Of a stretch of DNA of 64,000 nucleotides, positions 5,990 through 27,764 are shown in pieces. How positions within the stretch are numbered: position 1 is the stretch's first letter; every line of letters starts with the position of its first letter. This DNA comes from Closterium sp. NIES-65 (taxonomy: Eukaryota; Streptophyta; Zygnematophyceae; Desmidiales; Closteriaceae), in NCBI GenBank assembly GCA_948144175.1, contig CANXME010002467.1, positions 1-64,000 of the forward strand, written 5' to 3'. The notes beneath the pieces were generated by a model. The model saw nothing but the letters and a program-made list of their open reading frames with translations. It was not told where the DNA came from and did not search any database. The position numbers were made by a program, and so were the translations under genes.

Positions 5990-7349
5990 GGCCTAACATA
6001 GTACAAAAGCGCTGATGATCACCAGACGGAAATGCCTTGGCCCGAGTGGCCACGTGAGCAAGACGAAGCTGACCACGCTGCTGCAACTCTCAAGCCAGGA
6101 AGTAACGCAGAGCGATGTGCTTCGTTCTGTGCTCCAGTCTGTGCTCCTGACACAAGGCAATGGCGGCCTTCTTGTCTACATACAGAACTGGACGAGAACG
6201 AGGCCGCTATCCCAAGTCGGTCAGCAGGTAGGTGAGCCAGCGTAACTCCTGCGCAGCCATGGCTGTGGCGTAGATCTCAGCCTCACAACTTGAGCTGAGA
6301 ACAGAAGACGAGCGGGTAGACCGCCAAGAAACAGAGCCGCAGCCAAGGCTGAAAGTGTAACCCTGTCACGACCGCTGCGTAGCCAGGTCGTCAACCCAAG
6401 AAGCGTCTCAGTGTCCAGTGAGGACAACGGAGCTCCGCCCTCCAAGCACAAGCCCCATGCCCGATGTACTGCACAAGTAGTGCAGTACCCTCTTTGCAGC
6501 ATCCATGTGCACCTTTCGGTGCCGACCAGGAGCCACGTAGCGAGCCAAAAGGCCAAGAGGGTACGCGAGGTCAAGACGAGTGCAGGTCATCAGGTACATG
6601 AGGCCCACTAGCTCTGGGTACGGGCCACTCGGCTCTACGGACTCGTCCGAGCGTGGAGCTGAGAGCGAGTGACCAGTAGCCAGAGGAGTGGACAGTGGCG
6701 AGGACCAAGTGAAGCCGAAGTGCTGAAGGACCTGCCGCACCATGTGTGACTGAGTCAGGGTGATGGTGCGGCGTGCTCTGCCCTGGGTGATCTGCAAGCC
6801 AAGGTAAGTGCGCAGCTCACCCAGGTGTGCACGTGTGTCTCTTCTGCAGCTCCGACTGCACAAGGGCGAGAGCCTCAGTACACGAGGATGTAGAACGGCG
6901 GCAATGAAGTGTCGGTGCGTAGAAACAACGACGGGTCAGCAGTGGAAGGGGCAAACCCAAGAGCTGCAAGTGTCATCCTCAGTGTGTCATGCCGCTCACG
7001 AGGCGCCTGATGGAGACCGTAGACTGGCCGACGGTGGCTCCACTGGGTACTAGGAGGGAACGACCCAGTGAAGGCAAGGTGGGCGGCGCAGCCAAATCTC
7101 CTCGTGCAGACTGCCCTGTAAGAACGCAGTGCTGAAGTCCATAGAGTGAAGCTCATAGTCACACTGAGCGGCAACGTGCAGCAGCACCCGAAGAGTGGTC
7201 ATCTTCGGGGTCGGGGAGAAGGTCTGGAAGAAGTCAACTCCCTGTCGCTAACTGAAGCCTCGTGCAACGTAACGAGCCTTGAAGACATGCGGGGAACCCG
7301 GCGGTCGCTTCATCCTGAAAATCCACATGCCATCGACGATGTTCGCCCC
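5990..7349 (-). pseudogene. Element M reverse transcriptase / RNase H, broken
   Basis: Read on the minus strand, this encodes the second part of a copia reverse transcriptase and its RNase H (TGSFPPSTQWSHRRPVYGL, TDTSLPPFYILVY, YLGLQITQGRARRTITLTQS, MYLMTCTRLDLAYPLGLLA, CSTSGMGLVLGG). The sequence is spread over three frames with several frameshifts and stops, one of them just at the YVDD site. Neighbour P carries a longer readable version. The upstream part of the same gene lies beyond gypsy G at 22808 and further right. Confidence 0.85.
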
Positions 7350-7730
7350 TGTCACCGAATATGCACGGTTGTGCATATAAGGTGCCAGTTAGATTGAGGT
7401 GTAGTTCTGGTGTGGTTCGGGTGTAGTAATGATGTGTATGAATATTCGAAGGTAGGTAGTTGGGGAACCAGGGAAGTTGACGCGAGGTTGGTAGGAGAGC
7501 ACCAAGGGTGAAATCCACGCGACCAATGTGATTGAACCAACCCAGGCTCGAGCCGCACATTGAGAAATGCATGGTTCGAGCCCAGGCCAGGTAAAGTCAC
7601 TCGCTCACACAGCCCTGATGCTTTCCGGTTGCTATCCTTTCGTATAGTGGACTATTGTTGCCTCAGGTGTGCAGACAGGTGGCAGACCACTCAGGGAGGA
7701 CCCTTGAGGTGAGAGTTACATAACTTTTAT
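7350..7730 (+). repeat. 5' terminal repeat (Y) of gypsy G
   Basis: Starts TGTCACCGAATATGCACGG and matches 22340-22720 through ACATAACTTTTAT, with about five substitutions. A TATA-like CATATAAGG lies at 7374-7382. The segment CTTTCCGGTTGCTAT at 7621-7635 is the exact reverse complement of 7729-7743, just after the repeat. Confidence 0.9.
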
Positions 7731-7743
7731 AGCAACCGGAAAG
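7729..7743 (+). promoter_or_regulatory. Putative self-complementary primer-binding site of gypsy G
   Basis: ATAGCAACCGGAAAG abuts the end of the 5' terminal repeat, where a tRNA primer-binding site (usually TGG...) is expected. It is a perfect 15-nt reverse complement of 7621-7635 in the repeat. No TGG-type site is nearby, and the gag ATG follows only 15 bases later. In Tf1-type chromoviruses the RNA 5' end folds back on such a site and primes reverse transcription. The role here is inferred. Confidence 0.6.
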
Positions 7744-7758: not shown

Positions 7759-8542
7759 ATGGATGTGTACGAGCTGCGTTATGGCAGGAACTATGGTCGC
7801 CGTGAGGATGATCGCTCACGGCGCGAACGCTCACGTGAGCGCGGGCGGTCGTTGGAGAGGTCACCGCGGAGGCCTGAGCGCTCGCCGCGGAGGCCGGCCT
7901 TTCGCGCAGATCTGGTCCCTCTTGCGCCAGATCGCCGAGGAGAAGGTGCAGAGCGAGAAGGAAGAGGCGGATCCGAGTCCGTCAGGATGGGAAGTGACCC
8001 GTGGCGGACGGATGCGCGCCACGGAGCTGGTGGCGATCATGGACATCGCCAGGACATGGGAGCGTATCGCTCGCCGGAAGAGGGTTACCGCCGTCGCGAA
8101 GATCGGAGTCGCGTGCATGGCCTGGAGGAATTTTTCTCTGGTCGGCAAGGAGACCTCGATGTTGACGGAGAGGACGAGGCCGACACGGCGAATAAGGCGC
8201 AGGAAATGAATCGCGAAGGCGAGGCGAAGGGCGATGACGAAGCCCAAGAAGAAGGCGCAGGCGAGCATCGCGAAATGCCCGCTGGAGTCAAGGAGGCCGA
8301 TCCGACGCAGGCGGGCGCGGCGGTGGAGCCAAGCGCGGCGAAAGCGGACGGGACGAATGGTGCGCGGAACCAGCCGCGTGGCGAAGAGAAGAACGACGGC
8401 GGGAGGCGTAGCAGTGGCCCGCGCTCATCGAATCCCCGTCAGCACCGTGACGAGAAACGCGGAGGCGAGGGGCGCGTGTCCGATTTGCGGCAGCACCGTG
8501 ACGTGGGGCACGGCGACGGCGCGCTCGCATCAGGCCAGGGAC
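7759..8542 (+). CDS. Gypsy G gag, RS-rich N-terminal part (interrupted by copia A)
   Basis: The ATG at 7759 is the first after the terminal repeat. The protein begins MDVYELRYGRNYGRREDDR and is dominated by Arg/Ser/Asp/Glu motifs (RRERSRERGRSLERSPRRP), resembling the RS domains of SR splicing factors. It continues through acidic and basic charged stretches until copia A interrupts it after 8542. The sequence resumes at 15923 with further RSPDPR-type repeats. Such a domain is not part of the standard gypsy capsid. It could bind RNA or chromatin, but nothing in the sequence decides this. Confidence 0.7.
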
Positions 8543-9552
8543 TGTCAACGGGAGCGTTGTAAGGCCCCGTCCTCGCTTGGGCGGAGCCAACCTTGTGGTC
8601 GGATGTGCGAGGGTTGCAGCCGACCTGCAGCAGTGGGCACGGTGACCACTGCAAGGGCGCCGAGCAGGAGGACGCCGCCCTGGAGGCCTGGTTGGCGTCC
8701 CGGACGCCTGGACGGCGTCCTGGGAAGCTGGACGCCGAGCTGGGCGTCGCCACGACCACCCGGACGTCTGGTCGACGTCGTGGGCGTCTGCACAGCGTCC
8801 GGGGGTCCGGACGCCGACTTGGGCGTCGGGTCCTGACACCGACCTGGGTGCCTAGTCGGCGTCCTGGGAGGAGAGACGTCGACGTGGGGGTTCGGAAGGC
8901 GTCCTGGGCACCTGGACGCCGGACTGGGGACGCCGGGCATGCGTGGCCGGCTACGGACTGCGTGAGCCGACCAGGCGTGGTTGCCCGGTCGATCGGGATA
9001 CCCGGGCGACGTGCGCGAGTGTCGCCAGGGTAGAGACTACGAGGCCAACCTCGGGGGTGGTATCCCGAGGTCGACGTGGCTGGTGGGCACAGTCGCTGGC
9101 GTGGAGTCTGCCAGGCGTCTGCGTTGCGCACATGACAGGGAAGTGCGCACCAACCAGCTGCGCACAAATGCGAAGCAGGTGCACCGTTGTCCTGCGGGTG
9201 CAACGCTGTGCAGCCGACTTGGTGCAGCACAAGCACACCGTGGACTTGCAACGTTGGCGAACCGCTACTCTGCAACGCTGGAGCGGTGCGAGCACTGCTG
9301 CGCTGGAGCGCGGTCGACCGTGCTGCGCTGGAGGTCGACCAGCAGCCTAGCTAGTACTTATGTAGTCTGTGATGCCAATGTTGTTGCCATCATTGTTGTC
9401 ATGTTTTCCTAGTGAAACTCTTGCCAATTCCCCCCTGTGAACCAGCAAGAAGCGTGAACACAAGGAAACGACTAAGTGAACGAACGCAGAGATCACACGA
9501 GCACACGTGCCTAGCCCATAGCCTAGCTCCCGTTGCTGTAGTTATCTCCGCA
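8543..9552 (+). repeat. 5' LTR of copia A
   Basis: The 1010-bp direct repeat is nearly identical to 14914-15922 (a few substitutions and one 1-bp indel seen by eye). Its middle is built of short GGACGCC/GGCGTC-type motifs. The last 200 bases resemble the LTR of copia B. Confidence 0.93.
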
Positions 9553-9675
9553 TGGTGCGGTGAGCGTGGACGACACCGCGACGTAGTTCAGTCTAGCCGA
9601 CTTAGCACATACCGATCGTGTTTGTAGACCGGCAGCCGTGCAGTCACTAGCGTGTGCGTAGGCGACGCCGAGGTG

Positions 9676-11254
9676 ATGGACACCCTGGAGGGACGGCTGG
9701 AGGATGCGAGGAGAAGCCATGCGGCCCAGGAGTATGGGGCGATACCGTGGGCAGTCGTCGAAGCCAGACTCCGCTCCGTTTGGGCGGCGGAGCACCCCCC
9801 TTCTCGACCTGCCTCTCCTCGACCGGTGAACAACGACGGTGGCGTCGATGTGGGCGTCAACGCCGGTGGAGGTCAGGTCGGCAAGCAGTGTGGGAGGCAC
9901 GTCGAGGCACCGAGGTGTGATACACGCCGGTGAAGTCGGCGGCGTTCAGACGCGAGGGGTGCAGTCGTCGACGGCTGCAGGCTCTTCACAGGGTGACGTC
10001 GGAGGTCGACGGAGTGGGTTGTCGCCGATGTCGGCGTCCCAGGTGACGGCAGGTAGGATTGCACCGAGCTACGGCTACTTCAAGTTTACGCCGGACAGGA
10101 TCTTGGTCACCCCTCCGCTAGTTGGTCGACCCGACATACTCACCTGGAAGGAAGCCATCGAGCCCCAGCTGGAGATGGCCGGGCTGATCGGCTTCGCCCG
10201 AGGGACCGTGGCGACGCCGGGGGAGCACCACCCCGACTTGCGTGCGGAGTTTCGCGCCGTGCAGCTGTTGACCTTCACGGTCATCTCGCGGTGCTGCTCG
10301 CCGGGCGTGCAGATCGCCTTGAAGTGGTGCCGCGAGTACATCGACGCCGTCCACCGGGCGTGGCACTTCATCGAGTCGACGTACCAGGTCACCGACGACC
10401 TGTTCATCGCCCAGCTGGAGGAACAGCTGACGCACCTGCGTATGGGTGACGAGGAGACAGCGAGTGACTACTGCAACCGAGCCCGGCGAATTCTCGCCAC
10501 TATCAGGATGGCCGGCGCGCAGTACTCCACGGCGTCGTACATCACCCATGTCATGCAGGGTCTCTCTAGCAGCTACAACCTGCTGAAGTGGCTGTCTATG
10601 GCGCCGAGCACAAGGGCGACGCTCAACGAGGACAACCTGACCTCGTATATCCTGCAGGACGAGGCGATGCAGGAGGCTGAGCGGTCGCAGGAGCTCTTGG
10701 CGCAGGCGAACTTGGTCACCTCAGCGAAGCAAGGAGGCCCACCGGGACAGCGCGGGCAGTCTGGCGGTGGTGGTAGCAGTGGCTGGAAGCCGGCCAAGGA
10801 GGTCGACAAGAGGAAGTCGACCAAGGACAGCGGTCGTGGAGGTGGAGGTCGACGTCGGGAGTGCTGGCTGTGCGGCGTCCCCGACCATCTCTCCTTCGAG
10901 TGTCCCAACCGCAGTGACTCCGATGACGACGATGCTAAGGGAGGCCGTGGGAGGTCTGGCAGCCGTCGTCCTCGTCGTGGAGGAAACCAGCCGCGCAAGG
11001 AGAAGCAGTCGACCAAGACATCGACTTTGGCGAAGGATGCCGACTCCCTTGCTGGCAGCAAGGGGCGAGACGACAAGACGGCGTCGTGCTCGCTGGTCGG
11101 CGTCGTGGAGCCGACCATCTCTCTGGCACTGGAGGCCGGAGAGGACTTCCAGGCGGTGGCGGCAGCTGTGCAGGCGAACCCGGCGGTGGTCCTGCTCGAC
11201 AGCGGTTGCTCCCACCACCTGATGGGGACGAAGGAAGCCTTCGTTGACTTGTAG
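9676..11254 (+). pseudogene. Copia A gag-protease, frameshifted
   Basis: The frame starts at ATG 9676 (MDTLEGRLEDARRSH, matching B at 58708). One extra base near 9886 shifts it, after which it is open to the TAG at 11252. It contains a copia capsid (YGYFKFTPDRI, WHFIESTYQVTDDLFIAQLEEQ, LRMGDEETASDYCNRARRIL), a zinc knuckle (CWLCGVPDHLSFEC: CX2CX4HX4C) and an aspartic protease site (VVLLDSGCSHHLMG). Copy B lacks the extra base. Confidence 0.9.
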
Positions 11255-12778
11255 CCGAGCGGCGTCAACAGGCATGTGCGCGGCTTCAATGGGGCGCTCC
11301 AGGATGTCCAGGGCCGCGGCACCGTCGCTCTGCAAGGAGAGGCCGGGAAGGAGGTGCTCATCCCCGACGTGTTGTACGTCCCGGGTGTGCGAGCCAGCCT
11401 GCTGTCGGCCGGCCAGCTGAAGGAGCATGGCGTGAAGCTACAGGAGGACGGAGACGGCATGCTGCTCGTCTCGGCAGCAGGGGAGGTGCTCGGGCGGGCG
11501 ACGTACTCTGGGCGAGTCCTCTGCACCGACCTGCGTCCATGCACGACGACGTCAGCGTCAACCACACTGGAGGTGGTGGCTCTGCGGGCAATCGTCTCGA
11601 AGATGAAGTCGACGTCGGACCGGATGCATGCAAGGCTTGCGCATGTCGGCATGGACACCATACGGAGCTCGGCGAAGAACGAGGTCGCCATTGGGCTGGA
11701 CCTCAAGTCGGCGACGGACGCCGACTCCCCGTGTGTCTCGTGCGTCGGCGGGAAACTGGCGTGGCACACCTTCCCCGACCACGGCTCCGACGCCGACGAC
11801 GTGCTGGCCGTTGTGCACATCGACCTGTGCAGGCCGTTTCGCGTGGCTGCCAAGGATGGCAGCCTGTACTTCTTGCTGCTGAAGGACCGCAAGACCCGCT
11901 ACGTGTGGGTGAAGCCGGTTGCCAAGAAGTCAGATGCGTTGCAAGCGTTCGTGTAGTGGCTGGCGGTGGCAGACGAAGAAGTCGGTGTTGATGCTGCGCT
12001 CAGACCGGGGAGGGGAGTTCCTCGGCAAGTAGTTCACCGACTTCGTGAACGGAAAGGGGATCGTCCGCGACCTGACCTGCCCATACACCCCGCAGCAGAA
12101 CGGCATGGCGGAGCGGGAGATGAGGACGGTGGTGGAGTCGGTGCGGACAATGCTGCTGCACATGGGTGTGCAGCACCACTGGTGGCACCTCGCTCTGCGG
12201 CAGGCCGTCTGGGTCCGCAACTGCCTTGAGAGGTCGACGCTGCCGCCGGGGACGACGCCGTACCAGCTGCTGACCGGGAAGAAGCCTGACTTGTCGCAGG
12301 CGCGGGTGTGGGGCTGCATGGCGCAGTTCCTTGTCCCTGAGCAGCAGCGTGGTGGGAAGCTGAAGCCGAAGGCCAGGTGGGCCCTGCACCTCGGCGTGTC
12401 GGCGGCGAGCAAGGGCTGGGAGCTCCTCGACGTCAACACCGACCGAGTGGTCACCACGTCGGACGTGGTGTTTTACGAGGAGATGTCGCTGGCCGAGTGG
12501 AAGACGGACCATGGGCCGGTGTCCGGCCGCTCGCCGTCCACCTCGCCCTCGAACACCTCGTCAGCGACGCTGCCGCTGCTTGCCGAGGTTGGTGAGCTTG
12601 CTACCGAGGACGTTGAGGACGTCCACACCCCTACCCCTCACCCTCTGACCCCTGCCCCTCCCCTCGTGACCGACCTGCGTGGGCTGACCTCGGTGTCGGC
12701 CTCCGGCGATGAGGGGAGTCGTGGGACGCCGCCTTTGGCACCGGCCAAGTGCATCGCCGGTGGCCGACGTGACGAGCG
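11255..12778 (+). pseudogene. Copia A integrase, with nonsense codons
   Basis: Encodes the end of protease (VLYVPGVRASLLSAGQL) and a copia integrase: the zinc-binding HHCC region with HARLAHVGMDTI and CVSCVGGKL, DLCRPF as the first catalytic Asp region, LRSDRGGEFLGK as the second, and PQQNGMAEREM containing the Glu. Stops occur at 11954-11956 (TAG), 12030-12032 (TAG) and 12779-12781 (TGA) where copy B has CAG, CAG and CAA. A short deletion near 11965 also shifts the frame relative to B. Confidence 0.9.
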
Positions 12779-14784
12779 GTGAATCGACGTGGGATTACAG
12801 TCGACAGGGGAGGAGCAGGTCGAGGAGCAGCAGCCGACAGGGAGCAAGCTGCCGTGAAGCCGACCACGGAGCTGTCGGCGACCGGGCCGTCGACAGGGGA
12901 GCCGACCACAGGGGAGAAGTCGGCTGGGAAGCCGACCACAGTGGAGCAGTCGGCTGGAACGCCGGCTGAGGAGCAGCAGGACGCCGAGGGCGATGACGAC
13001 AGCGACGATGGAGGGGATGCCGAGGAAGCCCAGCCGGGACCACGGCGTTCAGGCCGACTTCGTAGGCCGCCTGACTTCTTCGTCTCCGCTGCCTTCACCA
13101 CGGTGTATGACGTGGACGATGACGACAACCTGCTGTACGATGACACCGAGGATGATGAGGAGTTTTCGGAGCTCGACCCCGACATGCTAGCCGACCCCGA
13201 GCACCGTTGGGACATCTCGACGATGACGGTGAAGGAGGCGTTGGCGAGCTGGAAGGGCCCGGCGGTGAAGGCCGCCATGGAGGAGGAGATTCGCAGCCTC
13301 ATCAACATGGGCACTTGGGAGCTGGTCGAACGCTCGTCGGGGGTGAACGTCATGAAGAACCGGTGAGTGTTGACGACGAAGTACCACATCGACGACACCG
13401 TCGAGCGAGAGAAGGCGAGGCTGGTCGTAAAGGGCTTCACACAGGTGTACGGCAACGACTACGACGAGACGTTACGTTGAGGATCTTCCTCAGCATCGTC
13501 GCTGTCCTCAACCTCAACCTGATGCAGCTCGACATGAAGAACGCCTTCCTGCAGAGCAAGCTCGATCGGGTGCTGTACATGTCCCAGCCGGACTACTTCA
13601 ACGATGGAACCGGCCGGGTGTGTAAGCTGCTGAAGAGCCTGTACGGGCTGAAGCAGTCGCCGCTGTTGTGGTACTTGGCGCTCAACGATGTGCTGGTCGG
13701 CGCCGGATGGAAGAAGAGCCACTTTGACGAGGCTCTTTAATTCAAGGTCGGCGAGGGTGGAGTAGCCTGCTGGGTGCTGGTCTACGTCGACGACCTGCTT
13801 GCCGCCAGCAGCAGCGCCGCGATGCTGAAGGAGCTGCTGGAAGCCGCCTTCGAGCTGCGCGAGATCTCGCCGGTGCAGAAGTACCTCGGGCTGGAGATCG
13901 TGCGCGACAGGTCGGCGGGGAAGATGTGGCTGCACCAGCAGGGCTACGCCGACAAGCTGCGGAGGTGCTTCATCGACGAGGAGGAGACCGGGCGCACTAC
14001 GAAGATGCCAGTCTCGGTCGGCGCCTACGTCGAGCTCACCTTCGAAAACGAGGAGGCGCAGGAACGGCAGGAGGAGGAGTACCGGCAGAAGGTCGGCTCG
14101 CTGCAGTTCGCGGCGACGACGACGAGGCCGGACATCGCCTTCGCCTGCAGCAATCTGGGGAGCGGCCTCACGGTGAGGAGCGACCAGCACTGACGCGAGG
14201 TCGACCGCTGCCTCGCCTACCTCGCCAACACACGTGACACTGCCCTGGAGTTCGGCGGTGGACCTGAGTCACTGGAGTTGGTCGGCTACGTGGACGCCGA
14301 CGACGCCGGTGACAAGCAGAACAGGACGAGCACGAGCAGCTACGTGTTCGTCTACGGAGGGGCTGTAGTCTCCTGGTCGAGCCAGCGCATCAAGTGCGCG
14401 ACGTTGTCGTCAACTGAGTCGGAGTACGTGGCGGCCAGTGAAGCTGGCAAGGAGTGACGCCGCCTTCGTTTCCTTCTTGCAGAATTCCGGCAGCTGGACG
14501 CCGGGAAGCCGACTGTCCTGCGCGTGGACAACAAGTCGGCCATCACGGTCGCCGAGGGCATGGGGTTGACGGGCAACCTCAAGCACATGGAGCGGCGACA
14601 GGCCTGGTTGCAGCACATGGTGAAGCGCGGGAAGTTCTCGCTGCAGTACATCCCAACCGCTGAGCAGCCGGCCGATTTCCTGACGAAGGGGCTGCACTAT
14701 CCGGCCTTCAACCGGTGCTCCGTCGCAATTGGTCAGGTGCGCTTGGCCGACGTGAGTGACGGCGACAACGACGTGCAGCAGTAG
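12779..14784 (+). pseudogene. Copia A reverse transcriptase / RNase H, broken
   Basis: Copia reverse transcriptase with LDMKNAFLQSKLDRVLYM, SLYGLKQSPLLWYLALND, an intact YVDDLLAASSS catalytic site near 13783, and RNase H with VDNKSAITVAEGMG and ADFLTKGLHYP. A deletion at about 13475 removes the bases between DYDET and the next motif and shifts the frame. Stops at 13366 (TGA for TGG), 13738 (TAA), 14191 (TGA for TGG) and 14455 (TGA) match sense codons in copy B. Confidence 0.9.
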
Positions 14785-14913
14785 GTGCCATGCCCTCTTG
14801 CATGGCTGGTGCGGTGACCAGCGTGCTGTGTGTTGGGTGCACGCCGACGGGCTATTCTTGGAGCTGTACTGCCGTGTGGGCTAGGGGGCCCAAGCGTGAA
14901 CGCGGCAGGGGAG

Positions 14914-15922
14914 TGTCAACGGGAGCGTTGTAAGGCCCCGTCCTCGCTTGGGCGGAGCCAACCTTGTGGTCGGATGTGCGAGGGTTGCAGCCGACCTGCA
15001 GCAGTGGGCACAGGGGCCACTGCAAGGGCGCCGAGCAGGAGGACGCCGCCCTGGAGGCCTGGTTGGCGTCCCGGACGCCTGGACGGCGTCCTGGGAAGTT
15101 GGACGCCGAGCTGGGCGTTGCCACGACCACCCGGACGTCTGGTCGACGTCGTGGGCGTCTGCACGGCGTCCGGGGGTCCGGACGCCGACCTGGGCGTCGG
15201 GTCCTGACACCGACCTGGGTGCCTAGTCGGCGTCCTGGGAGGAGGGATGTCGACCTGGGGGTTCGGAAGGCGTCCTGGGCACCTGGACGCCGGACTGGGG
15301 ACGCCGGGCATGCGTGGCCGGCTACGGACTGCGTGAGCCGACCAGCCGTGGTTGCCCGGTCGATTGGGATACCCGGGCGACGTGCGCGAGTGTCGCCAGG
15401 GTAGAGACTACGAGGCCAACCTCGGGGGTGGTATCCCGAGGTCGACGTGGCTGGTGGGCACAGTCGCTGGCGTGGAGTCTGCCAGGCGTCTGCGTTGCGC
15501 ACATGACAGGGAAGTGCGCACCAACCAGCTGCGCACACCTACGAAGAAGGTGCACCGTTGTCCTGCGGGTGCAACGTTGTGCAGCCGACTTGGTGCAGCA
15601 CAAGCACACCGTGGACTTGCAACGTTGGCGAACCGCTACTCTGCAACGCTGGAGCGGTGCGAGCACTGCTGCGCTGGAGCGCGGTCGACCGTGCTGCGCT
15701 GGAGGTCGACCAGCAGCCTAGCTAGTACTGATGTAGTCTGTGATGCCAATGTTGTTGCCATCATTGTTGTCATGTTTTCCTAGTGAAACTCTTGCCAATT
15801 CCCCCTGTGAACCAGCAAGAAGCGTGAACACAAGGAAACGACTAAGTGAACGAACGCAGAGATCACACGAGCACACGTGCCTAGCCCGTAGCCTAGCTCC
15901 CGTTGCTGCAGTTATCTCCGCA
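14914..15922 (+). repeat. 3' LTR of copia A
   Basis: Direct repeat of 8543-9552, preceded by the purine tract GGCAGGGGAG and followed directly by gypsy G sequence (GCGACAGCATCGCG). Confidence 0.93.
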
Positions 15923-17466
15923 GCGACAGCATCGCGATGGGGGACACGCTGGCGGCGCGCGCTCGCCAGATCCGTGGCCGCAGCGTGACGAGAGGCGCGA
16001 AGGCGGCTACCGCTCGCCTGATCCGCGGCCGCTGCATGAGGATAGGCGCGGAAGCAGTTACCGCTCGCCAGATCCGCGGCAGCGCCGTGACGGAGAACGC
16101 GGAGGCAGTGCGCACTCGCCAGACCCGCAGAGGTATCACGGCGGGAGGAGCAAGGGGGGGCTCGCGCTCACCAGATCCGCATCACTATCATGATGGGCGA
16201 CGCGAAGGTGGCTATCGCTTGCCTGACACACGACGGTACCATGGAGGGAGGTGGGGAGGCGAGGCGAGCTCGCCAGATTGGCGTCAGCGACACGAGGAAA
16301 GCCGGGGAGGCAGATACCGCTCGCCGTCGCGGCAGCGGAGCAGGGATGGAAGGCACGGCGGTGGGTCTCGCTCGCCTGGGCGGTATCGGCAGCGTGACGA
16401 AAGACGTGCCGGTGAAGGAGGATAGGATCAACACGGTAGCAGAGTGGGAGGCAGCGGGCTGATGCACAGCCTGGAGCGAGCCAGAGAGGCAAGGGAGGGG
16501 ATACTGCGGGCGAGAGAGAGGGGAGCATCTGGCAGATCAGCAGGCGGGCCGAGTGAGGCTTGGGGAGAAGGAAGGGGAAACACGGCGATGGTCACGAGAG
16601 TGGAAGTGCCAGCACGCTTCTCAGGGGACCAGCGTCTGGGGCCCACACTGAAGAATTATCTGATGCAAGTGGGCAATGTGCGGTACAGATGCGAGAGGAG
16701 CGGCATGGATGCAGTAGACTTCTTTCTGAGTCTGCCAAACACGCTGGAAGGGGAGGCAGAGACACTGTATAGGATGAAGATGGATGAGCCACTGGAGAGG
16801 GCAGGTAGGTATGGGGAGGACCCAACAGAAGAATTCCTGAGGCGGCTGAAGCGGCAGTTCCCAGGCCATACCACAGAGAAGATTAGGGAGTTCCAAGATT
16901 TCAGGAAGGGGCGGGGCGAGTCGCTACTCACCTACTACAACCGGCTGGTCAACCTGGCGGAGGATGTGACTTGCGCAGACATGGGCCTGCTCGTGAGCAA
17001 GTTCCTGGACGGGCTGGAGAGCACTTTAGGGAGCGGGCTGCGGATGAAAGTGTACGAGATGGGGGCTGACGCCACACTAGAGGAGGTGTTTGAGATGGCA
17101 GAGAAGATGGAGCTGGCACAGAGGAAGTATGAGGCATACAGGCCTCGAGCAGCAGAACGAGGCAGGGGGCCTACGTGGGCTGCAGCCATGATACCGGAAG
17201 AGAGGGACAGGGCTGCAGGAAGAGGGGAGACCAGGCCTGACACGCGGACGTGCCAAGGTGCGGGCAGCCGGGACACTTACGCAGAGACTGCAAGAACTGT
17301 GACTCCTGTGGCAAACCAGGGCATCGGCGACGGGAGTGCCCAACAGCGCCAAAGTGTGAAATCTGTGGGAAGGGAGGGCATGCAGCGAAAGAATGTTACC
17401 AACGAGAGGGAGCAGCGAAAAAAGACGCCAGAAGACCTGGAAAGGCAGATTAGCAGGTTACAAGCC
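15923..17466 (+). CDS. Gypsy G gag: RS repeats, capsid, zinc knuckles
   Basis: After copia A the RS-like repeats continue to about 16430 (RSPDPRPLHEDRRG, HSPDPQRYHGG; the frame is not constant there). From 16444 a capsid-like protein follows: EVPARFSGDQRLGPTLKNYL, LSLPNTLEGEAETLYRMK, EFLRRLKRQFPGHTTEKI, LTYYNRLVNLAEDVTCADM, a retrotransposon gag helical fold. Three CCHC zinc knuckles follow at 17250-17400 but in another frame. The original frame returns for a coiled-coil-like segment (EDLERQISRLQA) and stops at TAG 17467, after which pol continues in the same frame. Confidence 0.8.
17250..17405 (+). CDS. Three CCHC zinc knuckles of gypsy G gag, out of frame
   Basis: In the third forward frame the sequence reads CGQPGHLRRDC, CDSCGKPGHRRREC and CEICGKGGHAAKEC. 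The last two are perfect CX2CX4HX4C knuckles; the first lacks only its leading Cys, which lies in frame 1 just upstream. Such knuckles bind retroelement RNA during packaging. Flanking gag and pol are in frame 1, so one base was lost near 17256 and one gained in the A run at about 17417-17422. Confidence 0.85.
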
Positions 17467-17469
17467 TAG

Positions 17470-19404
17470 TTGCAGGCAATGGGACCACGATGCGAAGCAG
17501 AAGCGGGGATGTACGCTAAGGAAGAAAAGGAAGAAGATGTAGAGCAGGATGAGGAAGCCGCGTTCATGAGCTGGGCAGGAAGAGCAGAGGACGAGATGGA
17601 ACACGAGGAGCAGCCAGCCTATATGGCATGGAGAGGAAGGGAGGAAATGGGGCTGCGCAGTGGAGGAAAGGATGCACGGAAGGAGCAGGTGAGAAAGGAA
17701 AGGGAGAGGGGACAGAAACCGGAAGAGAAGGAAGAGAGATGTACAACAGCACGGCACCCCCAGGAGAGGTTGGCTTGCCAGACTTCCGTGCTGTTGATCC
17801 AAGGTGGCGCGTTGTCTGTAGAAGGGGAGAAGGCCAAGACGGCTATTATAGATACTGGCGCGCAGAGCGTGATACTAGGGAAGGGGATGGCCGAGAAGCT
17901 GGGACTGTGGGCACCGGACAGGCATGTGGTGAAGGGGATGCTGGTGATGACGGCAGAGGGAGGAGAATCAAAGTGGAAGCCATGTACAAGGACTCCAATA
18001 GAACTGACGGTGCTAAAGGGGGAGAAACACGAAACGCCGGTTAGGATGAGGTGCGGGATCTCAGAATCTGAAGACTTTGACGTCCTGGTGGGCACGGAAA
18101 TGATTTTTGCATTGGGCATGACCATCTGCTTTTGGAAGGAGACAGTGGAGTTCAGGACCAGGTGGTGGAGGAAGGGTGAGCCACTAGGACAGCTGCCTGT
18201 GCAGTTTGTCAGGACGGAGCCAAAAAGGGCTTACAGGGCAGATCTGAAGGAGGTGACAGCGAAACAAGGGGCACAGGAGAGCACGACAGGCAATGAACAG
18301 GGTAGAGAGCCCAGGATGCGCTTCATGGACGAGCCTAGCCAACACACCGATTGGCAGCAACCCATCCGGCTAGTGGAACTGTTCGGAGGAATAGTGACGG
18401 GACTGGCAGCAGTGGTGCGGAATGGGATTGCAGTGAAGGAGTGGATTTACGTGGAGAAGGCAGCAGAAGTGAGAAAAATGGCGGAGCATCATATGTGGGA
18501 GGTGCACAGGGAGTTCCCGGAACTGTTGAAGGGAGAGGTGATCAAGGCAGCAATGGGCAGAGGAGTGAATGACGTAAGGACCATTACGGAAGCTGAGGTG
18601 GCAAGCTGGGGGCACGTGGACCTGTTGGTGGCCGGGTGGGAATGCCAAGGGGTATCATGGGCAGGGAAGGGCAAGGATGAGCAAGACCCAAGGACCCAAC
18701 TGATGGAGGATCTGTTCAGAATCATGGAATCGGTGCAGGCAAGGCAGGGCAGACTAGCTTACCTGCTAGAGCACTTGGACCTGGAAGGGGATGTAAGAGA
18801 ACCAGTGAGACTGGTCGGGGAGAGAGTAACCAAGCAGGTGGGTAAGGGGGTGAGCAGTGACGCGGCGCGGATGGGAGCATACGCGCACCGGCTCAGGATG
18901 TACTGGCAGAATGTAGTGCCAGTGGAAGAACTGCAGAAGCAGATAGAAGGGGTGCAGAGAGCAGGGGGGCGGAAGTTGAGCGACATACTGGAGCTAGGAA
19001 GAACACCAGCACCAGTGAGTAAGAGGAGCTATAGTAGACACTATTCATGCAACCAGGTGGGGCAGGAGAGGTCAGCACTACCTACGCTGGTGTCTTATGA
19101 GGGGGCAGCAGGATATCGGATGGACGGGAAGCAGCCAGGCCCAGGATTAGTGCTCGACCACAGGAAGGGACGGTGGGAGGAGCCCACGGCCTTGGAGAGG
19201 GAGCTTGCCATGGGGTACAAGGAGAACGCGACAGCAGCACCTAGCGTGAGTGAACAGGAATGGAGGCGGGCAATGGGGAATGCAATGGATGGGTACATGC
19301 TGAGGTGGTTGGTGCAGCGGATGTGGAGAGAGACAGTGCTGCACTGGGGACTGAAAGAGGGAGAAAACACAGTGCCGACAGTTAGGCAAGGGGCGTGGGC
19401 CTGC
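17470..19404 (+). CDS. Gypsy G pol part 1: aspartic protease + cytosine-5 DNA methyltransferase
   Basis: This part has 645 codons in frame with gag and with the rest of pol. Residue numbers count from 17470. The aspartic protease has its catalytic site at IIDTGAQSVI (D128). It is followed by a C5-cytosine methyltransferase: motif I LVELFGGIVTGL (301-312, SAM binding), motif II WIYVEKAAEVRK, motif IV DLLVAGWECQGVSW (catalytic Cys392), motif VI YLLEHL (Glu434), motif VIII AYAHRLRMYWQN (His473-Arg474-x-Arg476), and motifs IX-X ending RRAMGNAMDGYM (598-609). The family transfers a methyl group from SAM to cytosine C5 in DNA. The domain lies between protease and reverse transcriptase, where gypsy elements normally have nothing. 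Motif IV has Glu-Cys instead of Pro-Cys, so activity is uncertain. A TAG at 19405 ends the segment. Confidence 0.88.
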
Positions 19405-19407
19405 TAG

Positions 19408-20841
19408 CAGAAACAGGAGCCAGAGTGGATGATAGGTGAGAGCATGAGCGAAGAAGGGAGGGCAGCAATGCGGGCACTATTGGCCAAGCACAGGAAGGGC
19501 TTTGCCTTCACCCTGCGGGAGTTGGGGAAGTGCAAGATCAAGGAGATGGCCTTGAAGCTGAATAGTGATGAGCCGGTGTACCACCGCAGGAGGAAGATGC
19601 CACCAGGAGATGAGGCGATCAGCAGGGAAAAGATAAAGGAGTTGCTGGAAGCCGGACTGATTAGGAGGTCGGAGTCCGAGTGTGCCACCCCGACCGTGGT
19701 GGCAGCCCGAAAGGACTTGACAGGCGAGGTGCTGAGCAGAAGGATGTGCGGGGATTACAGGGATCTTAACAAAATCACAGTGCCAGATAGATACCCCATG
19801 CCGATGGCAGAAGAGCTCTTTGACAAGTTGGCTGACGGGGTGTTCTTCACAACGCTGGACCTGCGACAGGGGTTCAATCAAATCAAGATCAGAGAGGAGG
19901 ACGTGAAGAAAACGGCCTTCCACGGGCCGGATGGGCTGTACGAGTGGCTGTATATGCCCTTCGGTCTGAGGAACGCCTCGGCAGTGTTCCAGAGAGTTAT
20001 GGACGCGGTGCTGCGGGGAATAGAACACGCGGCGTGCTATATTGATGATGTCGTGATCTTCAGCTTGACCGAGCAGTAGCACCTGGAGGATGTGGAGAAG
20101 ACACTAACGGCCATAGAAGGGGCAGGGCTCACTTGCCATCCGAACAAATGCAAGTGGGGGGAGCGGACAGTGCAGTACCTGGGGTACGAGGTCACAGGGG
20201 GGCAGATTGGGATCCTGCAAGCAAAGGTGCAAGTGCTGGACAGGCTAAGGGAACCACGAGACAAATCAGGACTGCGTGCGGTCTTGGGCTTCCTCAGCTA
20301 CTACAGGCGCTTCGTGCCAAACTTCAGTAAGCGAGCGACGGTGCTGAATGGGATGCTGCGCGAAGACAAGGCATGGGAGTGGGGAGAGAAGTAGAGAGAA
20401 GCGCTACAAGACCTCATGACAGCCGTAAAGACAGTGACAGTGCTGCGGCTGCCAGCAGCAGACCAGCCCTTCATCTTGTACACCGACTGGAGCAGCCAAG
20501 GGATGGGGGCAATACTGTGCCAGGAGGTGGAGGGAGTGGAGAAGGTGGTGGCCTACGCCAGCAGGAGATGCAACCCAGCGGAAGCCCAGTACAGCTCATA
20601 CATCGGGGAGGGGCTGGCGGCAGTGTGGGCGGTCGGGCATTTCCGGGTATACCTGCAGGGCCGAGAATTCACCCTAGTCACTGATCATCAGCCCCTCACA
20701 TGGCTGATGACCACACCAGGGCTAACAGGGAGGAACGCGAGGTGGGCAGTGAAGTTGCAGGAATATGATTTCAAGATTAGGCACAGGCCGAGGAAGACGC
20801 TGCAGCACGTCGATGGTCTCTCCCGCAACCCACCGCCGCTG
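19408..20841 (+). CDS. Gypsy G pol part 2: reverse transcriptase + RNase H (two in-frame stops)
   Basis: Same frame as the methyltransferase. The reverse transcriptase shows RRRKMPPGDEAISREKIKEL, CGDYRDLNKITVPDRYPMP, FFTTLDLRQGFNQIKI, YMPFGLRNASAVFQ and the catalytic YIDD at 20038-20049. After TAG 20077 the thumb region continues (CHPNKCKWGERTVQYLG, FLSYYRRFVPNFS). After TAG 20392 comes RNase H (LYTDWSSQGMGAILCQ, TLVTDHQPLTWLM, DGLSRNPPPL). All Ty3/gypsy landmarks are intact and no indel is visible; only the two TAG codons break the frame. It ends at TAA 20842. Confidence 0.9.
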
Positions 20842-20844
20842 TAA

Positions 20845-22245
20845 GCGGGACAGATAACACCGGGGACGGAGGAGACAGAGCCGGAGCCAGCGCAAACCTT
20901 GATCTTGCTGGCATGAGAGGTGGAGCAGGTCGGTGCAAAAGGGAATCAGGGGCCAGCTGACATCTGGCAGGATGCAAAGGCAATGGAATGGGTGAAGGGA
21001 GAAACCGAAGAAGACGAGACGATATCAGAAAGGGTGAGGGCACGAGGGCACCACTACAGGTGGTATCAGCAGCAGCTGCAGATCAAGACGGAGGATGGCT
21101 GGAAGCTGGTGCCAGCGCCTAAGGACCGTGAAGTAGTGATCAAGGAAGTGCACACTAAGCTGGGACACTTCGGGCACGAGAGGACCGTGCAGCTGCTAAA
21201 GACGGGCTGGTGGTGGGAAGGGATGCGCAGGCAGGTGAAGGAGTGGGTGGAGGGGTGCGAGGCCTGTCAGAGGAGCAAAGAAAACTTGACACAGGCCAAA
21301 GCAGAGCTGCACTCACTACCAATCTGCGGGCTGGGGTTCCGATGGTCCCTAGACCTTGCAGGAGAGCTGCCGCTGAGCAGGAGCGGGAATCAGTACATAG
21401 TGTTCATGGTGGAACATGTGAGCAAGTGGCTGGAGGTGAGAGCCATCCCTAGCAAGAGCACGAGGCATATTGCAGCAGCCTTCAAGGCACAGGTAGTGTG
21501 TCGGTTTGGAGCATGCAGTGAGGTGCTCACAGACCAGGGAACGGAGTTCCAAGGGGAGTTCAAGAAGCTGCTGGAGGAGTCTGGCATCACGCACCGGAAG
21601 ACCTCCCGGTACCACCCGCAGAGTGACAGGCTGACCGAGCGAGCAGTGCAGACCTTCAAGCGAGGACTGCGGGCCTACGGGGAGCAGAGGAAGAGGGATT
21701 GGGATGATGAGTTGGACTGGATCGCAGCGGGGTACAGGTTTGGGAAGCAGGCAGCGCTGAAGGATCATTCCCCGTATAGCCTGCTCTTTGGACGAGAGCC
21801 CATTCTGCCAGTGGGGGCACCACGGGTACTGACAGACACAGTGGCAGCGGGCACGATCAAGAACTGGGTAGCCCTGTCAGAGGTGAGAGCGCGCTACCTG
21901 CGCTACATGATGCCAGCCGCCTTGGAGAATCTGCAAACCGCACAGCTGCGAGATGCCAGGAGATACGAACAGCGACAACGCAAGGGCGAAGGAAAAATGG
22001 CGAGGGGCGTCTGGGAAGGGCACGAAGTTTATTTGAAGAGAGCGAAGCAGGATACTCTAGACGTGGGGTTGGGGACAGTGCGCTGGAAAGTCAAGGAGGT
22101 GCGCCCATCTGGGGTGCTGGTCTTGGAGAACGACAAAGGAGCGTTGTTGAGGGAGCATCAGACGAACACAGGCGTGATCAGAGGGACCGGGCCTCAGCGT
22201 ACTGGTCCTGTGACCCGCGCTCGAGATGCTCAAGCACGGGCATAG
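20845..22245 (+). CDS. Gypsy G pol part 3: integrase
   Basis: Still in the pol frame, with one TGA at 20914 in the tether to RNase H. The zinc-binding HHCC region is HTKLGHFGHERTVQLL...CEACQRSK. The catalytic core has WSLDLAGELPLS (first Asp), LTDQGTEFQGEF (second Asp) and YHPQSDRLTERAVQ (Glu). The C-terminal part has VYLKRAKQDTLDVG and GVLVLENDKGALL; I do not recognise a chromodomain. The protein ends at TAG 22243-22245, 9 codons after the RTGPVTRARDA tail. A purine tract (GGAGGGGGCAGAGAG) follows at once. Confidence 0.9.
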
Positions 22246-22254
22246 GAGGGGGCA

Positions 22255-22337
22255 GAGAGTGGCTGAGGCAGCAGAAGGAACAGAGAAGAAGAGAATCTGA
22301 ATGCAGGCAGATGATGAGCAGAGCTATTCCTCCGACA
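22255..22337 (+). repeat. X: repeat preceding the 3' terminal repeat of gypsy G
   Basis: GAGAGTGGCTGAGGCAGCAG ... CTCCGACA, directly after the purine tract and separated by two bases (GC) from the TGTCACC start of the terminal repeat. It is repeated after the terminal repeat at 22722-22807 with four substitutions and one extra AAG. Confidence 0.9.
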
Positions 22338-22339
22338 GC

Positions 22340-22720
22340 TGTCACCAAATATGCACGGTTGTGCATATAAGGTGCCAATTAGATTGAGGTGTAGTTCTGG
22401 TGTGGTTCGGGTGTAGTAATGATGTGTATGAATATTCGAAGGTAGGTAGTTGGGGAACCAGGGAAGTTGACGTGAGGTTGGTAGGAGAGCACCAAGGGTG
22501 AAATCCACGCGACCAATGTGATTGAACCAACCCAGGCTCGAGCCGCACATTGAGAAATGCACGGTTCGAGCCCAGGCCAGGTAAAGTCACTCGCTCACAC
22601 AGCCCTGATGCTTTCCGGTTGCTATCCTTTCGTATAGTGGACTATTGTTGCCTCAGGTGTGCAGACAGGTGGCACACCACTCAGGGAGGACCCTTGAGGT
22701 GAGAGTTACATAACTTTTAT
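22340..22720 (+). repeat. 3' terminal repeat (Y) of gypsy G
   Basis: Direct repeat of 7350-7730, about five substitutions in 381 bp. It is embedded between X and X'. Confidence 0.9.
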
Positions 22721-22721
22721 T

Positions 22722-22807
22722 GAGAGTGGCTGAGGCAGCAGAAGGAACTGAGAAGAAGAAGAGAATCTGAATGCAGGCAGATGATGAGCAGAGCTGTTTC
22801 TCCAACA
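22722..22807 (+). repeat. X': second copy, forming the right end of gypsy G
   Basis: Copy of 22255-22337 ending TTTCTCCAACA. The next bases, CCCCAGGAGGGGG, are the continuation of element M, so CA at 22807 is the right terminus of the insertion and pairs with TG at 7350. Confidence 0.88.
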
Positions 22808-25800
22808 CCCCAGGAGGGGGAACCTCATCAACGTAAGTGCCTGTGGACTTCCAGAATGCCATCTCTACGTCCATGGTTGTCTGCCACTGAGAGGAGTAGG
22901 GACCTGCGATCGCCTCAGCGTAAGAACGCGTAGTCGGGATGTCTGGTGCATCCGGGTCTCCCTCAGGGGCAAGCACCATGGCTATGAGATGAGGCGCAGC
23001 GGCTGCAAGACACTCAAAGTCCTCCTGCCTGTCCTCAAGGACGTCCCTGCCAAGAGCACACTCACCCCCGACGGACGGAGGACAGACAGACTCAAACTCA
23101 GCAACAAGACTAGCAGCGTAGTCTATACGACAGGCAGCAGCAAAGTCAACAAGCTCAGAGACTAAGGCAGACGCAGCAGCAGACTCAAACGACGGGTCAG
23201 TGACAACAGTGGTGAGCAGACGCGTGACAGCAGGGTGAGCAGCACGAACCAAGTCAGACTCAGGGTCCTGAACGTCAGGCAGAGAAGACGCAGGAGGAGA
23301 TGGTAGGGGAACACGCTGTGGAACAGAGGAATGACGAAGTGCCATAGCATGCGTGCCAGGGACAGGAGGCGGACGCTCACAAGGAACACGACGACTAGCG
23401 CGACGCACACGAACAGGCGAGGCAGGACGAGACGCAGGCTCACAACGCTCCGTAAGCGAGTCTGTCTGCTCAGTGTAAGGAGAAGGAGCAGGCAGTGGTG
23501 CGCCGGGCTGTAACGGGAGGCCAGTAGAAGATGGGAGGCTAAGAACCTGGTGAAGCACGGAGTCAGGCGGTGGAAGAGACGACGGTGACGGCAGAGCGAA
23601 AAACAGTCGCGACGGTGCAGTGCCACCAGTACTAGTAGCTCTAGCGCCTCCAGCAGCTCTAGAACCTCCAGCTCCAGTGCCTCCAGCAGCAGCACCTCGA
23701 GCTCCATTGACTCCAGCAGCAGCACCTCCAGCTCCAGCGCCTCTAGCAGCTCCAGAACCTCCAGCTCCATCGACTCCAGCAACAGTACCTCTAGCTCCAG
23801 CGCCTCCAGCAGCTCCAGAACCTCTAGCTCCAGCGCCACCCAGTAGCAGCACCCCCAGAACCGGCACCTCCAACCTCAAGGTCCCCAACTCCAGGGTCGA
23901 CAGGACCAGCGCCAGGGCCTCCAGCAGCAGCACCCCCAGAACCGTCACCCCCAGCTCCAGGGTCTCCAACGCCAGAGTCGACAGCACCAGCTCCAAGGCC
24001 TCCAGCCCCAGTACCTCCAGCAGCAGCACCCCCAGAGCCGACACCTCTAGCTCCAGGAGCAGCACCAGTCCCGGCAGCTCTAGTACCTCTAGTACGAGCA
24101 CCTCCAGGACCAGAGACACCAGCACTCCCAACACCTCCACGACAAGTAGCTCCAGCAGCACGACTCCTCAGGCGGGTACGCAACGCAAGCCACTCTCGGG
24201 CCTGCTGTGATGAGATAGGCTCACGTCGTGAAACGAGACCCAGAGAAACGCAAGCAGACTCAGCACCCTTAGGCTCCGCACCCCCCGGCACCTCACAGAC
24301 GGGCTCAGCACCCCCAGAATCCGCTCTCCCCAGCACCTCACGCGCAGGCTCAACACCCCCAGAAGCAGCACCCCCAGCAGCACCTCCCGCAGCAGCACCT
24401 GAGTCGTTAGTGACCTCCACAGGCTCAGCCAAGGGGGGCGGGTCTACCTGAGACACACCTGAAGGAGCAAGACCTTGAGGGGGGAGGGGGTCTACCGGAG
24501 GGGGACCTCGAGTGAGGAAAAGCGGCGGGGGAGGGAGAGGGGCAGTGCGGTAGGGGAAGAGACGGTAGAAAGGTGATGGGTGCGGTAGGGGAAGAGACGG
24601 AAGAGACCGACTCGTCAAAGGTGACGTCCTGAGAGGGGAAGACACGGCGCGAGGTGGGGTGGTAAAACTGCCAGCCAGGCGCGTTAGGGACAAAGCCGAG
24701 GAAGACGCAAGGAATGGTGCGGGAGGAGAGCTTGTCCGCGGACGTATCGTGGACAAGGGCACGAGCACCCCCCACCCCGAAAACGCGACGCATCGCCAAC
24801 CTCCCCCGTCCAACGCAGTGTAGGCGAGGTCTCCGACAAGGAGACACGTGGCCAGAGGTTGAGTTGCTGCGCGGCGTACCGGACCGCTAACGGCCACAGA
24901 AAATGGTGAGCCGCCGCATGAATCAAGGAGGTACGAGCGACCTCCATGACTAAGCCAATGCGGCGCTCAGCAACCCAACTTTTCTATGGTGAGCCCGGAA
25001 GCGTGAACGACTGCTCGATGCCCTCCCCCTGGCAGAAGGCCCGCAAGAGGTCGGAGGTGAACTCACCACCTTTGTCAGAGTGCAGACGTAGGACAGGAAG
25101 GTCCTGGCGGAACCTGTGGCGGAGCCGAAGACGAACTGCTTGGATCCAAGGGATCAGGACAGCAAGGACCTCACCCTTGGTGCGCAAGGGGAAGACTGTG
25201 GTGTACCGCAAATAGTCGTCGACAACCAGCAGAAAGTACCGCTCACCGCCTTGTCCACGAGCACGGGCTGGGCCCCACACGTCCGGGTGGAGGCTCTGCA
25301 AAGGAGCCTTTGTCGGGGGAAACGAGGAGTGAGGAGCGGCGTGCTGCCGCCCCTCGACGCAAGGAAGGCAGGGCAGCACAGGTGAGGCAGGGAGGGGAGG
25401 GAGAGACTTGGGAAGACCAGACACAAGGAGGCGACGGTGCATGCCACGTAGACGTGGCAAGGAGGGATGACCTAGGTGGTGGTGCCAGAGAAGAGTCTGG
25501 TGCGACAAGGAGCGAGAATCACAAGGGGAGGCTACCTGACCTGACGCAGACACCTGACTAGTTGCAGCTACCTGAGGAGGCGGAGTCTTCAGTGTGTAAA
25601 GACTCGACCCTGGCCGACGGGTAAACGTGGCCAGGTGGCGGCCGGTCTGGGAGCACGTACAAATCGGCACACGCTGCCGGCCAGGGGTGAAGGTGTGAAC
25701 CTCCGCATCCTGGAGGACAGCGGTGCTCACCAAGTTTGTAGAGAACGAGGGGAGGTGGAAGCCTATCAGTGAGCCAGACGGAACCGCCGGGCACGGAAGC

Positions 25801-26510: not shown

Positions 26511-26689
26511 TCTAGGAGGAGCGCGACCTCTAGGGCAGTATGGAGTGAAGGCAGTAGCACGAGTAGCAGCAGCAGCAGTAAGAGCAGCAGGGCGGCGCGC
26601 GGCCAGAGCAGGGCGGCGCGCGGCAGGCAGTAGCTCCTATGGCCTTTTTTCGAATTATTATTATTGTTTTAATTCAATTTTGGGTTTAG

Positions 26690-27540: not shown

Positions 27541-27640
27541 GACGCAAGGTGGTGGGGTAACGCGGTAACCGCAGTCGGAAGCTAAGTATGGTGGGCCCGG
27601 AAAAAAAAAACGGCCCTACGGTCCTACTGCTCTAAAACCA

Positions 27641-27764
27641 TGTCAAGATAGCAAGCATGGATGATGGCATTGAATGAAATGTGGGTACAAGTACTAACCC
27701 TAACTTCGGGTTGTACCCCATATGAGCTACCCCACTATAGCCTACACAGAACTAACACATATAA
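27641..27764 (-). repeat. 5' LTR of element M, cut by element N
   Basis: Matches 5596-5719 (TGTCAAGATAGCAAGCATGG ... CTAACACATATA). The last ten or so bases of the LTR are missing because the LTR of element N starts at 27765. Confidence 0.88.

Follow-up and report, generated by a model that had tools for sequence, protein, structure and literature searches.

A degenerate copy of a Ty3/gypsy retrotransposon family in Closterium sp. NIES-65 with a Dnmt3-type cytosine-5 methyltransferase between protease and reverse transcriptase

The 64,000-nucleotide stretch of Closterium sp. NIES-65 DNA that we analyzed (the window) contains a Ty3/gypsy element that carries a C5-methyltransferase (DNMT) and is inserted in a copia element. 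Self-comparison of the window showed that a copia pol (5651-7349 and 22808-23498) is split by an insertion at 7350-22807 with CCCC duplicated, and that the split pol is homologous to 40894-42624 and 42621-43311, the homologue overlapping by the same 4 bases. The insertion has the repeat order A-coding-B-A-B (Table 1). It is the middle level of a three-level nest at 5595-27763, i.e., an outer copia, the DNMT gypsy and an inner copia. The outer copia has terminal repeats at 5595-5718 and 27640-27763 (97.6%), with a long array of an 18-bp repeat (26653-27631) close to its end, and more copia is present at 29580-64000, with repeat pairs at 29580/37980 (100%), 40837/47276 (99.3%) and 57478/63520 (98.8%).

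Table 1. Features of the DNMT gypsy and its insertion site (positions in the window; empty strand cells, no strand given)
Feature	Positions	Strand	Basis or remark
Left target-site duplication CCCC	7346..7349		right copy 22808-22811
5' repeat A1, starts TGTCACC	7350..7730	+	98.69% identity to A2
Predicted transcript 5' end, complementary to primer-binding site (self-priming)	7621..7635	+	15-nt exact complement
Primer-binding site, self-priming (predicted)	7729..7743	+	complementarity to 7621..7635
gag N-terminal part, open, interrupted by nested copia	7759..8542	+	no stop
Nested copia, not part of DNMT gypsy	8543..15922		LTR pair 8538-9552 / 14909-15922, 98.0% identical
Remaining gag, disrupted	15928..17466	+	frameshift near 16156, stop at 16423
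Aspartic protease (DTGA), frame aa 110-260	17797..18249	+	gag-asp_proteas 1.3e-4, under its curated cut-off
Dnmt3-type C5-methyltransferase, frame aa 290-625	18337..19344	+	profile matches; Cys392 codon 18643, Glu434 codon 18769
Reverse transcriptase, broken by stop at 20077	19408..20391	+	RVT_1 1.3e-20
RNase H region, broken by stop at 20842	20395..20913	+	assigned by position between RT and IN
Integrase, H2C2 + DDE core	20917..22242	+	Integrase_H2C2 1.9e-18, rve 1.7e-11
Polypurine-like tract AGGAGGGGGCA, directly 5' of B1	22244..22254	+	same 11 bases in 13/13 rows
Repeat B1, ends ACA; then GC (22338-22339)	22255..22337	+	repeat comparison
Repeat A2	22340..22720	+	self-comparison
Repeat B2, ends ACA	22722..22807	+	single extra base 22721 separates A2 and B2
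Right target-site duplication CCCC	22808..22811		left copy 7346..7349

The order protease-RT-RNase H-integrase, the DDE integrase, the TG..CA ends and the short, 4-bp target duplication place this insertion in Ty3/gypsy, as originally predicted. Its rve integrase and 4-bp duplications set it apart from DIRS elements, which have a tyrosine recombinase and no target duplication. The gag start codon is the ATG at 7759, the N-terminal part of gag matches the gag of sister copy L117 at 87% over residues 1-259, and pol ends at 22243; the Closterium relative P0044 has RT_RNaseH at the position that corresponds to the RNase H region of the window. No CCHC pattern is left in the pol frame of the window copy, which has stops at 17467, 19405, 20392 and 20914 in addition to the disruptions listed in Table 1, and this copy itself looks inactive. 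A first terminal-repeat search (10-30 kb, at least 80 nt) returned only low-complexity families, since A1, at 7350, lies beyond the nested copia; we rejected the view that the element has no terminal repeats once A1 and A2 had been recovered by the self-comparison.

The methyltransferase domain predicted between protease and RT is confirmed by significant profile matches, with PF00145 reaching 25.4 bits against a cut-off of 22 and the PDB profile of DNMT3A reaching 1.5e-27, versus 1.3e-11 for the best DRM and 3e-8 for HhaI. We class the domain as nearest to Dnmt3 on this comparison, i.e., relative to DNMT3A, DRM and HhaI, a set with no streptophyte host Dnmt3 in it. The motifs occur in the order I, IV, VI, VIII, X, with the Cys, Glu and Arg-x-Arg in place, and not in the DRM-type rearrangement. 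Across 21 copies of the same genome (the window and 20 others), the nucleophile Cys, both motif VIII Arg residues and the motif X Gly-Asn are retained in 21/21 and the motif VI Glu in 20/21. Pro-Cys is expected in motif IV of C5-methyltransferases, and the DNMT3A row of our alignment reads SPCND there; all 21 copies instead have Glu-Cys-Gln. The domain thus shares fold and motif order with DNMT3A and DNMT3B, but differs from them in motif IV (ECQ versus PCN), in its low identity (approximately 20% in structural alignment), in a C-terminal stretch unmatched by DNMT3A and, presumably, in having neither PWWP nor ADD. Dnmt3 enzymes are de novo methyltransferases. That the element is a Dnmt3-bearing gypsy we regard as close to certain.

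The domain is not confined to the window copy. Searching with the methyltransferase domain itself gave at least 68 scored matches in the same genome, the window included (3494 first-look candidates), and all 68 matches listed have the domain in the same frame after the protease, covering residues 1-645 in 67 cases and 2-645 in one; the original prediction had named absence of the domain from the other copies as evidence against it. The 67 listed matches other than the window are 88-95% identical to it. Copies with an intact frame, which the original prediction had proposed to look for, are also present: 55 of the 68 listed matches are stop-free over the stretch, 18 of these in frames of at least 2389 aa. 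These 18 scored sisters, stop-free in protease and methyltransferase, led us to reject the idea that the stops of the window copy are overcome, whether by a suppressor code or by programmed readthrough. Inspection of nine fetched copies showed a single frame of 2389-2491 aa in six, each with two or three zinc knuckles, and in several sisters one open frame of about 2,400-2,490 aa spans gag (zinc knuckles), protease, the Dnmt3-type enzyme, RT, RNase H and integrase. The 68 matches are not a count of insertions, because some are duplicates or alleles: 4 of 20 fetched copies share flanks with another of the 20. L108/L109, L110/L112, L111/L113 and L117/L122 are pairs that lie on different contigs with matching or almost matching flanks, which suggests that the assembly contains both haplotypes or large duplications.

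Comparison of eight long-frame copies gave median Ka/Ks values of 0.081 for the methyltransferase (0.068-0.104), 0.044 for protease, 0.047 for RT-RNase H and 0.048 for integrase (up to 0.226), using 22 of 28 pairs, the others lying outside Ks 0.03-1.2. With 16 copies, the medians were 0.097 for the methyltransferase (95 of 120 pairs, range 0.068-0.928) and 0.033 for protease (100 of 120 pairs). The window methyltransferase differs from its nearest sisters by Ka of about 0.030 and Ks of 0.028-0.037, i.e., there has been no constraint since the split, and this near equality of Ka and Ks is the pattern of a dead copy; these nearest sisters (L108, L110, L111) have few mutual differences and are also unconstrained. 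The long-term pattern is purifying, and the recent changes look neutral. In 5 of 11 copies, the A pair shows no difference in any compared column, and this, together with the 68 scored copies, shows a recent spread of the family.

The DNMT region retrieved 39 proteins (best 8000 candidates scored), every one of them named Closterium, under six strain names, and in many of these strain proteins the DNMT is followed by RT. A search with the DNMT of NIES-68 found 33 proteins, 21 from Closterium and 12 others, and a further homology search brought up 23 proteins from Closterium and a single unnamed one from ENA. Matches outside Closterium include Klebsormidium nitens, Marchantia polymorpha, a EukProt protein, metagenome elements and P0062, a metagenome protein with the DNMT at its start, then RT and, by eye, an apparent tyrosine recombinase, perhaps a DIRS-type DNMT element. 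The K. nitens protein KFL_013780020 (P0049) has a gag zinc knuckle, protease and DNMT in the same order, with the DNMT 39% identical to that of NIES-68, in a record that ends after the DNMT, the RT part being absent. In M. polymorpha MARPO_0020s0163 (P0051; DNMT 34%), Pfam detects the DNMT only, and gag-like zinc knuckles and a DSGAQ protease-like motif are recognizable by eye; the protein aligns with the gag-protease-DNMT part of L081, a gypsy from a crust metagenome, at 29% over 1109 columns, most of its length. This suggests that MARPO_0020s0163 is a land-plant member of the element or a gene derived from one, and our literature search found no paper on this gene.

The L081 element (contig CADCWO010000201.1) encodes gag-protease-DNMT, then RT-RNase H-integrase, and a C-terminal PHD finger; its RT matches Ty3 at 2.7e-77, and no B-A-B repeats were found within the examined part of the contig. 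Its DNMT frame stops at an in-frame TAG before RT. The contig is filed under a cyanobacterial (Synechococcales) MAG, in which it is probably eukaryotic contamination. Having the DNMT after the protease together with a PHD finger, L081 links the Closterium layout with a second one, in which RT comes first. P0048, P0050 and P0055 have the DNMT between RNase H and integrase and a C-terminal PHD finger; in P0053 and P0054 the DNMT follows RT and the models end before the integrase; and the model of P0056 starts inside the DNMT, which precedes the integrase, with a PHD finger among its precomputed domains. Five of these six proteins have Glu-Cys-Gln in motif IV, and P0053 has Pro-Cys-Gln. PF00145 is above its cut-off in P0050 and P0053 and below it in P0055, and the DNMT of P0048 has no Pfam match at 0.01 and scores 240 bits with our own profile.

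These RT-first elements are separate from Closterium in both the DNMT and the RT tree (96/87 and 96/96), with two of the RT-first rows in the RT tree being long branches that meet. The DNMT tree, which is partly open, has no usable root and has very long rows for DNMT3A and P0062, groups Marchantia with L081 and P0065 (94/98) and K. nitens with two metagenome proteins (100/99), and places the Closterium rows in several groups whose union is unsupported. In the RT tree, which has no good root, L081 joins the distant outgroup Ty3 (89/87). A single capture shared with Klebsormidium is as probable to us as separate ones. A viral or bacterial origin was rejected on present evidence: relatives in IMG/VR reach only 20-32% identity (best 80 of 239 loci), and in GTDB 7 loci were recovered, of which six are at 23-26% and the seventh, at 42%, is the probably eukaryotic gypsy contig L081.

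The arrangement of the repeats bears on how these elements integrate. The 20 fetched copies include one tandem (L118 and L119) and three copies without a resolved end (L116, L121, L124); merging the tandem and four flank-sharing pairs and dropping these three left 13 insertions, the window included. All 13 insertions, with both ends resolved, begin with TG at A, end with CA at B and have an exact 4-bp duplication. The order A-coding-B-A-B, a DIRS-like order, is present in the window and in 11 of the 20 fetched copies (among them L119, as the tandem end), and A-coding-B in 6 of the 20, with L116, L118 and L124 cut or ambiguous at their ends; three of the 13 insertions (L108, L110, L111) have A-coding-B only. 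Solo A|B was found at 14 loci that represent nine insertions, eight with an exact 4-bp duplication and one with 3 of 4 bases. Both the solo A|B and the A-coding-B forms could result from recombination of A1 with A2 or of B1 with B2. In the L118-L119 tandem (G000 C1923), A-coding-B-A-coding-B-A-B runs head to tail inside one GGAG target duplication, and both units are stop-free in protease and methyltransferase.

With a polypurine tract directly before B1 and a primer site directly after A1, the LTR expected from reverse transcription is B-GC-A. The B|GC|A junction is identical in 14 of 15 rows, the exception being L143. Of 23 insertions, only four (L114, L119, L121, L123) have a clean A|B junction. 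The remaining 19 are changed there, by one to three added bases, short deletions, polypurine bases left in place (L116) or a longer insert (L137). Even in a single subfamily (window, L128, L129, L131, L142), in which A agrees at 96-98%, the junction has one to three extra bases that are different in each. We consider it fairly probable that end-joined cDNA is the substrate of integration.

The alternative is that A-coding-B-A-B represents inherited, DIRS-like split repeats that are copied from RNA. The order is that of the split direct repeats of DIRS, as described in the consulted sections of PMC8969392, and of KnitGypsy (PMC5890265, in part). In addition, the other permutation, A|B-A-coding-B, is expected from a randomly cut two-LTR circle, and was found in none of 14 insertions (window and fetched copies). 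Scoring of 40 of 270 candidates, which overlap the earlier copies, gave 20 single 5' rows, with B before A in none, the sole row with B-A being the known tandem. This absence counts against a freely cut circle, and a nick left at the polypurine tract is our speculative explanation for it. Inherited repeats are nevertheless unlikely, since A|B varies within a subfamily nearly uniform in A, since L116 retains polypurine bases at the junction, and since a DDE integrase is combined with a 4-bp duplication, whereas DIRS elements are described as having no duplications (PMC8969392, same sections).

Integration of end-joined cDNA would be preceded by self-priming. The site that follows A1 has its complement some 271 bases inside A, and this self-complementarity is exact over 15-16 nt in 10 of 11 copies despite sequence variants, with 9 nt in L117. 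The window stretch folds into a hairpin with a z of -2.55, one of 200 shuffles folding equally well. Priming of the Tf1 type requires that the transcript begin with a stretch complementary to the primer-binding site, and such a start is predicted here. Self-primed gypsy elements are known, i.e., Tf1/sushi and Tcn1, whose primer-binding site is likewise complementary to the element's own RNA and which, in the portion of PMC6317226 available to us, are described with no mention of a methyltransferase.

Together, the explanation that we lean towards, with a little more confidence than doubt, is that the window copy is a decayed member of a Ty3/gypsy family, high in copy number and active in recent times, that integrates self-primed, end-joined cDNA and whose enzyme methylates that cDNA. 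The protease would release the methyltransferase inside the particle, where the RNA would self-prime by folding its 5' end onto the site adjoining repeat A. RT would then make cDNA with B-GC-A as the true LTR, from polypurine tract to primer site, and both cDNA ends would be joined in each cycle. The integrase would cut inside the LTR, at ACA-GC-TGT, giving A-coding-B-A-B and the 4-bp duplications, and the enzyme may methylate the double-stranded cDNA, probably at CG, before or during nuclear entry. On sequence features, we see the chances as balanced that the open copies encode an active enzyme whose target is the cDNA of the element itself.

The repeats carry a possible record of methylation. 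Transitions between repeat pairs (11 A, 12 B) occurred at 9/388 CG, 3/451 CHG and 7/1765 CHH sites, alongside 13 transversions (CG versus CHH, p 0.0006); the window copy accounts for 9 of the 19 transitions, and without it the counts are CG 5, CHG 0 and CHH 5. This CG bias suggests that the copies probably become CG-methylated. The four copia LTR pairs of the window gave CG 6/316, CHG 6/226 and CHH 5/519 (CG versus CHH, p 0.35), and the CG rate does not differ between element and copia (p 0.80), so the CG signature is not specific and does not point to the element's own enzyme. The same data bear on the possibility that the methyltransferase targets the host or sister copies and not its own cDNA, and damps expression or copy number, sparing the host. 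The de novo character of Dnmt3 enzymes and the CG-biased transitions in the copies are both consistent with such a role. Host benefit is also offered as one option in the sections seen of PMC5890265. We hold this to be a minority view, given the recent spread of the family (at least 68 scored copies, A pairs identical in 5 of 11) and the similar CG rate of the copia LTR pairs.

A further alternative starts from motif IV: with Glu for Pro, the domain may have lost methyltransferase activity and be retained for nucleic-acid binding or for a structural role in the polyprotein. ECQ in 21/21 copies favors this, as does the Klebsormidium gypsy enzyme, which gave no methylation in yeast, a result termed inconclusive in the portion of PMC5890265 consulted, though P0049, if the same enzyme, has PCQ. 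The catalytic residues retained across the 21 copies, and the Pro-Cys-Gln retained in the Klebsormidium, Marchantia and crust relatives, make loss of activity rather improbable. Finally, that the domain is a pseudogene of a host Dnmt3 or entered a single gypsy copy by chance, which would fit the stops of the window copy, is effectively ruled out by the 68 listed genomic matches with the domain in the same frame after the protease and by the proteins of six Closterium strains, many with RT following.

The preferred reading, i.e., self-primed, end-joined cDNA methylated by its own enzyme, can be extended to a broader proposal that we put forward tentatively, as possible rather than probable. A DDE-integrase gypsy lineage with its own de novo methyltransferase would integrate end-joined, probably circular cDNA, cut at the internal ACA-GC-TGT, and not the linear cDNA of RT; methylases would be captured by elements whose double-stranded cDNA persists in circular form (KnitGypsy, the Closterium family, and DIRS elements bearing adenine or cytosine methylases), the marks protecting or licensing the intermediate; and the lineage would include streptophyte algae as well as one land plant or more, and in a sister lineage the DNMT would occupy a second position in pol.

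The 2018 report of such an element rested on one charophyte. The same kind now proves to be abundant, and subject to purifying selection, in Zygnematophyceae, which are the closest algal relatives of land plants (PMC9915684, in part). The combination of a DNMT with gag-like and protease-like parts in the Marchantia protein suggests that the kind reached land plants, from which methylase-bearing transposons are said to be absent in the consulted part of PMC6338049. The many open, closely similar copies make the role of a retroelement DNA methyltransferase testable, with methylation readable on cDNA and young insertions, and the variable A|B junctions document, at the sequence level, that a gypsy element integrates by an unusual route.

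No methyltransferase retroelement in Closterium is named in the titles listed from the open-licence literature that we searched. A 2025 survey mentions streptophyte and dinoflagellate retrotransposon DNMT3s under the names Copia and DIRS, citing the 2018 work, and the word Closterium is absent from its main text as available (PMC12344493). Section 5 of this survey says LTR Copia for the streptophyte element, and the cited 2018 paper says Gypsy. The retroelements with C5-methyltransferases in Symbiodinium, given as copia for Symbiodinium in the original prediction, are LINE and DIRS in the sections seen of PMC5890265. SymbioDIRS-Dnmt3 resembles the Closterium element in its A-coding-B-A-B repeats, and two SymbioDIRS enzymes methylated CG in yeast; SymbioDIRS-Dnmt3 and SymbioLINE-Dnmt differ from it in having a tyrosine recombinase or a LINE endonuclease, where the Closterium element has a DDE integrase (PMC5890265).

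The precedent in a Klebsormidium gypsy that the original prediction cited does exist: the consulted part of PMC5890265 describes a Dnmt3 in the Pol ORF of KnitGypsy-Dnmt3 of K. nitens, with Ka/Ks under 0.2 and purifying selection, with repeats as in DIRS, and with fewer copies than the Symbiodinium elements. We infer that P0049 is KnitGypsy. The position after the protease, which the original prediction had thought might be new, has a forerunner, since P0049 has the order gag, protease, DNMT and a Dnmt3 in a gypsy Pol ORF had already been reported (PMC5890265). The two elements differ in class, Closterium belonging to Zygnematophyceae, and in motif IV (Glu-Cys-Gln versus Pro-Cys-Gln in P0049), and the target duplications, self-priming and junction variation of the Closterium element are not described for KnitGypsy in the sections of PMC5890265 consulted. 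They share a Dnmt3 inside an intronless gypsy pol frame, conserved key residues, and gypsy domains combined with DIRS-like A-coding-B-A-B repeats, and in view of that earlier report (PMC5890265, in part) the Closterium element belongs to the same kind as KnitGypsy.
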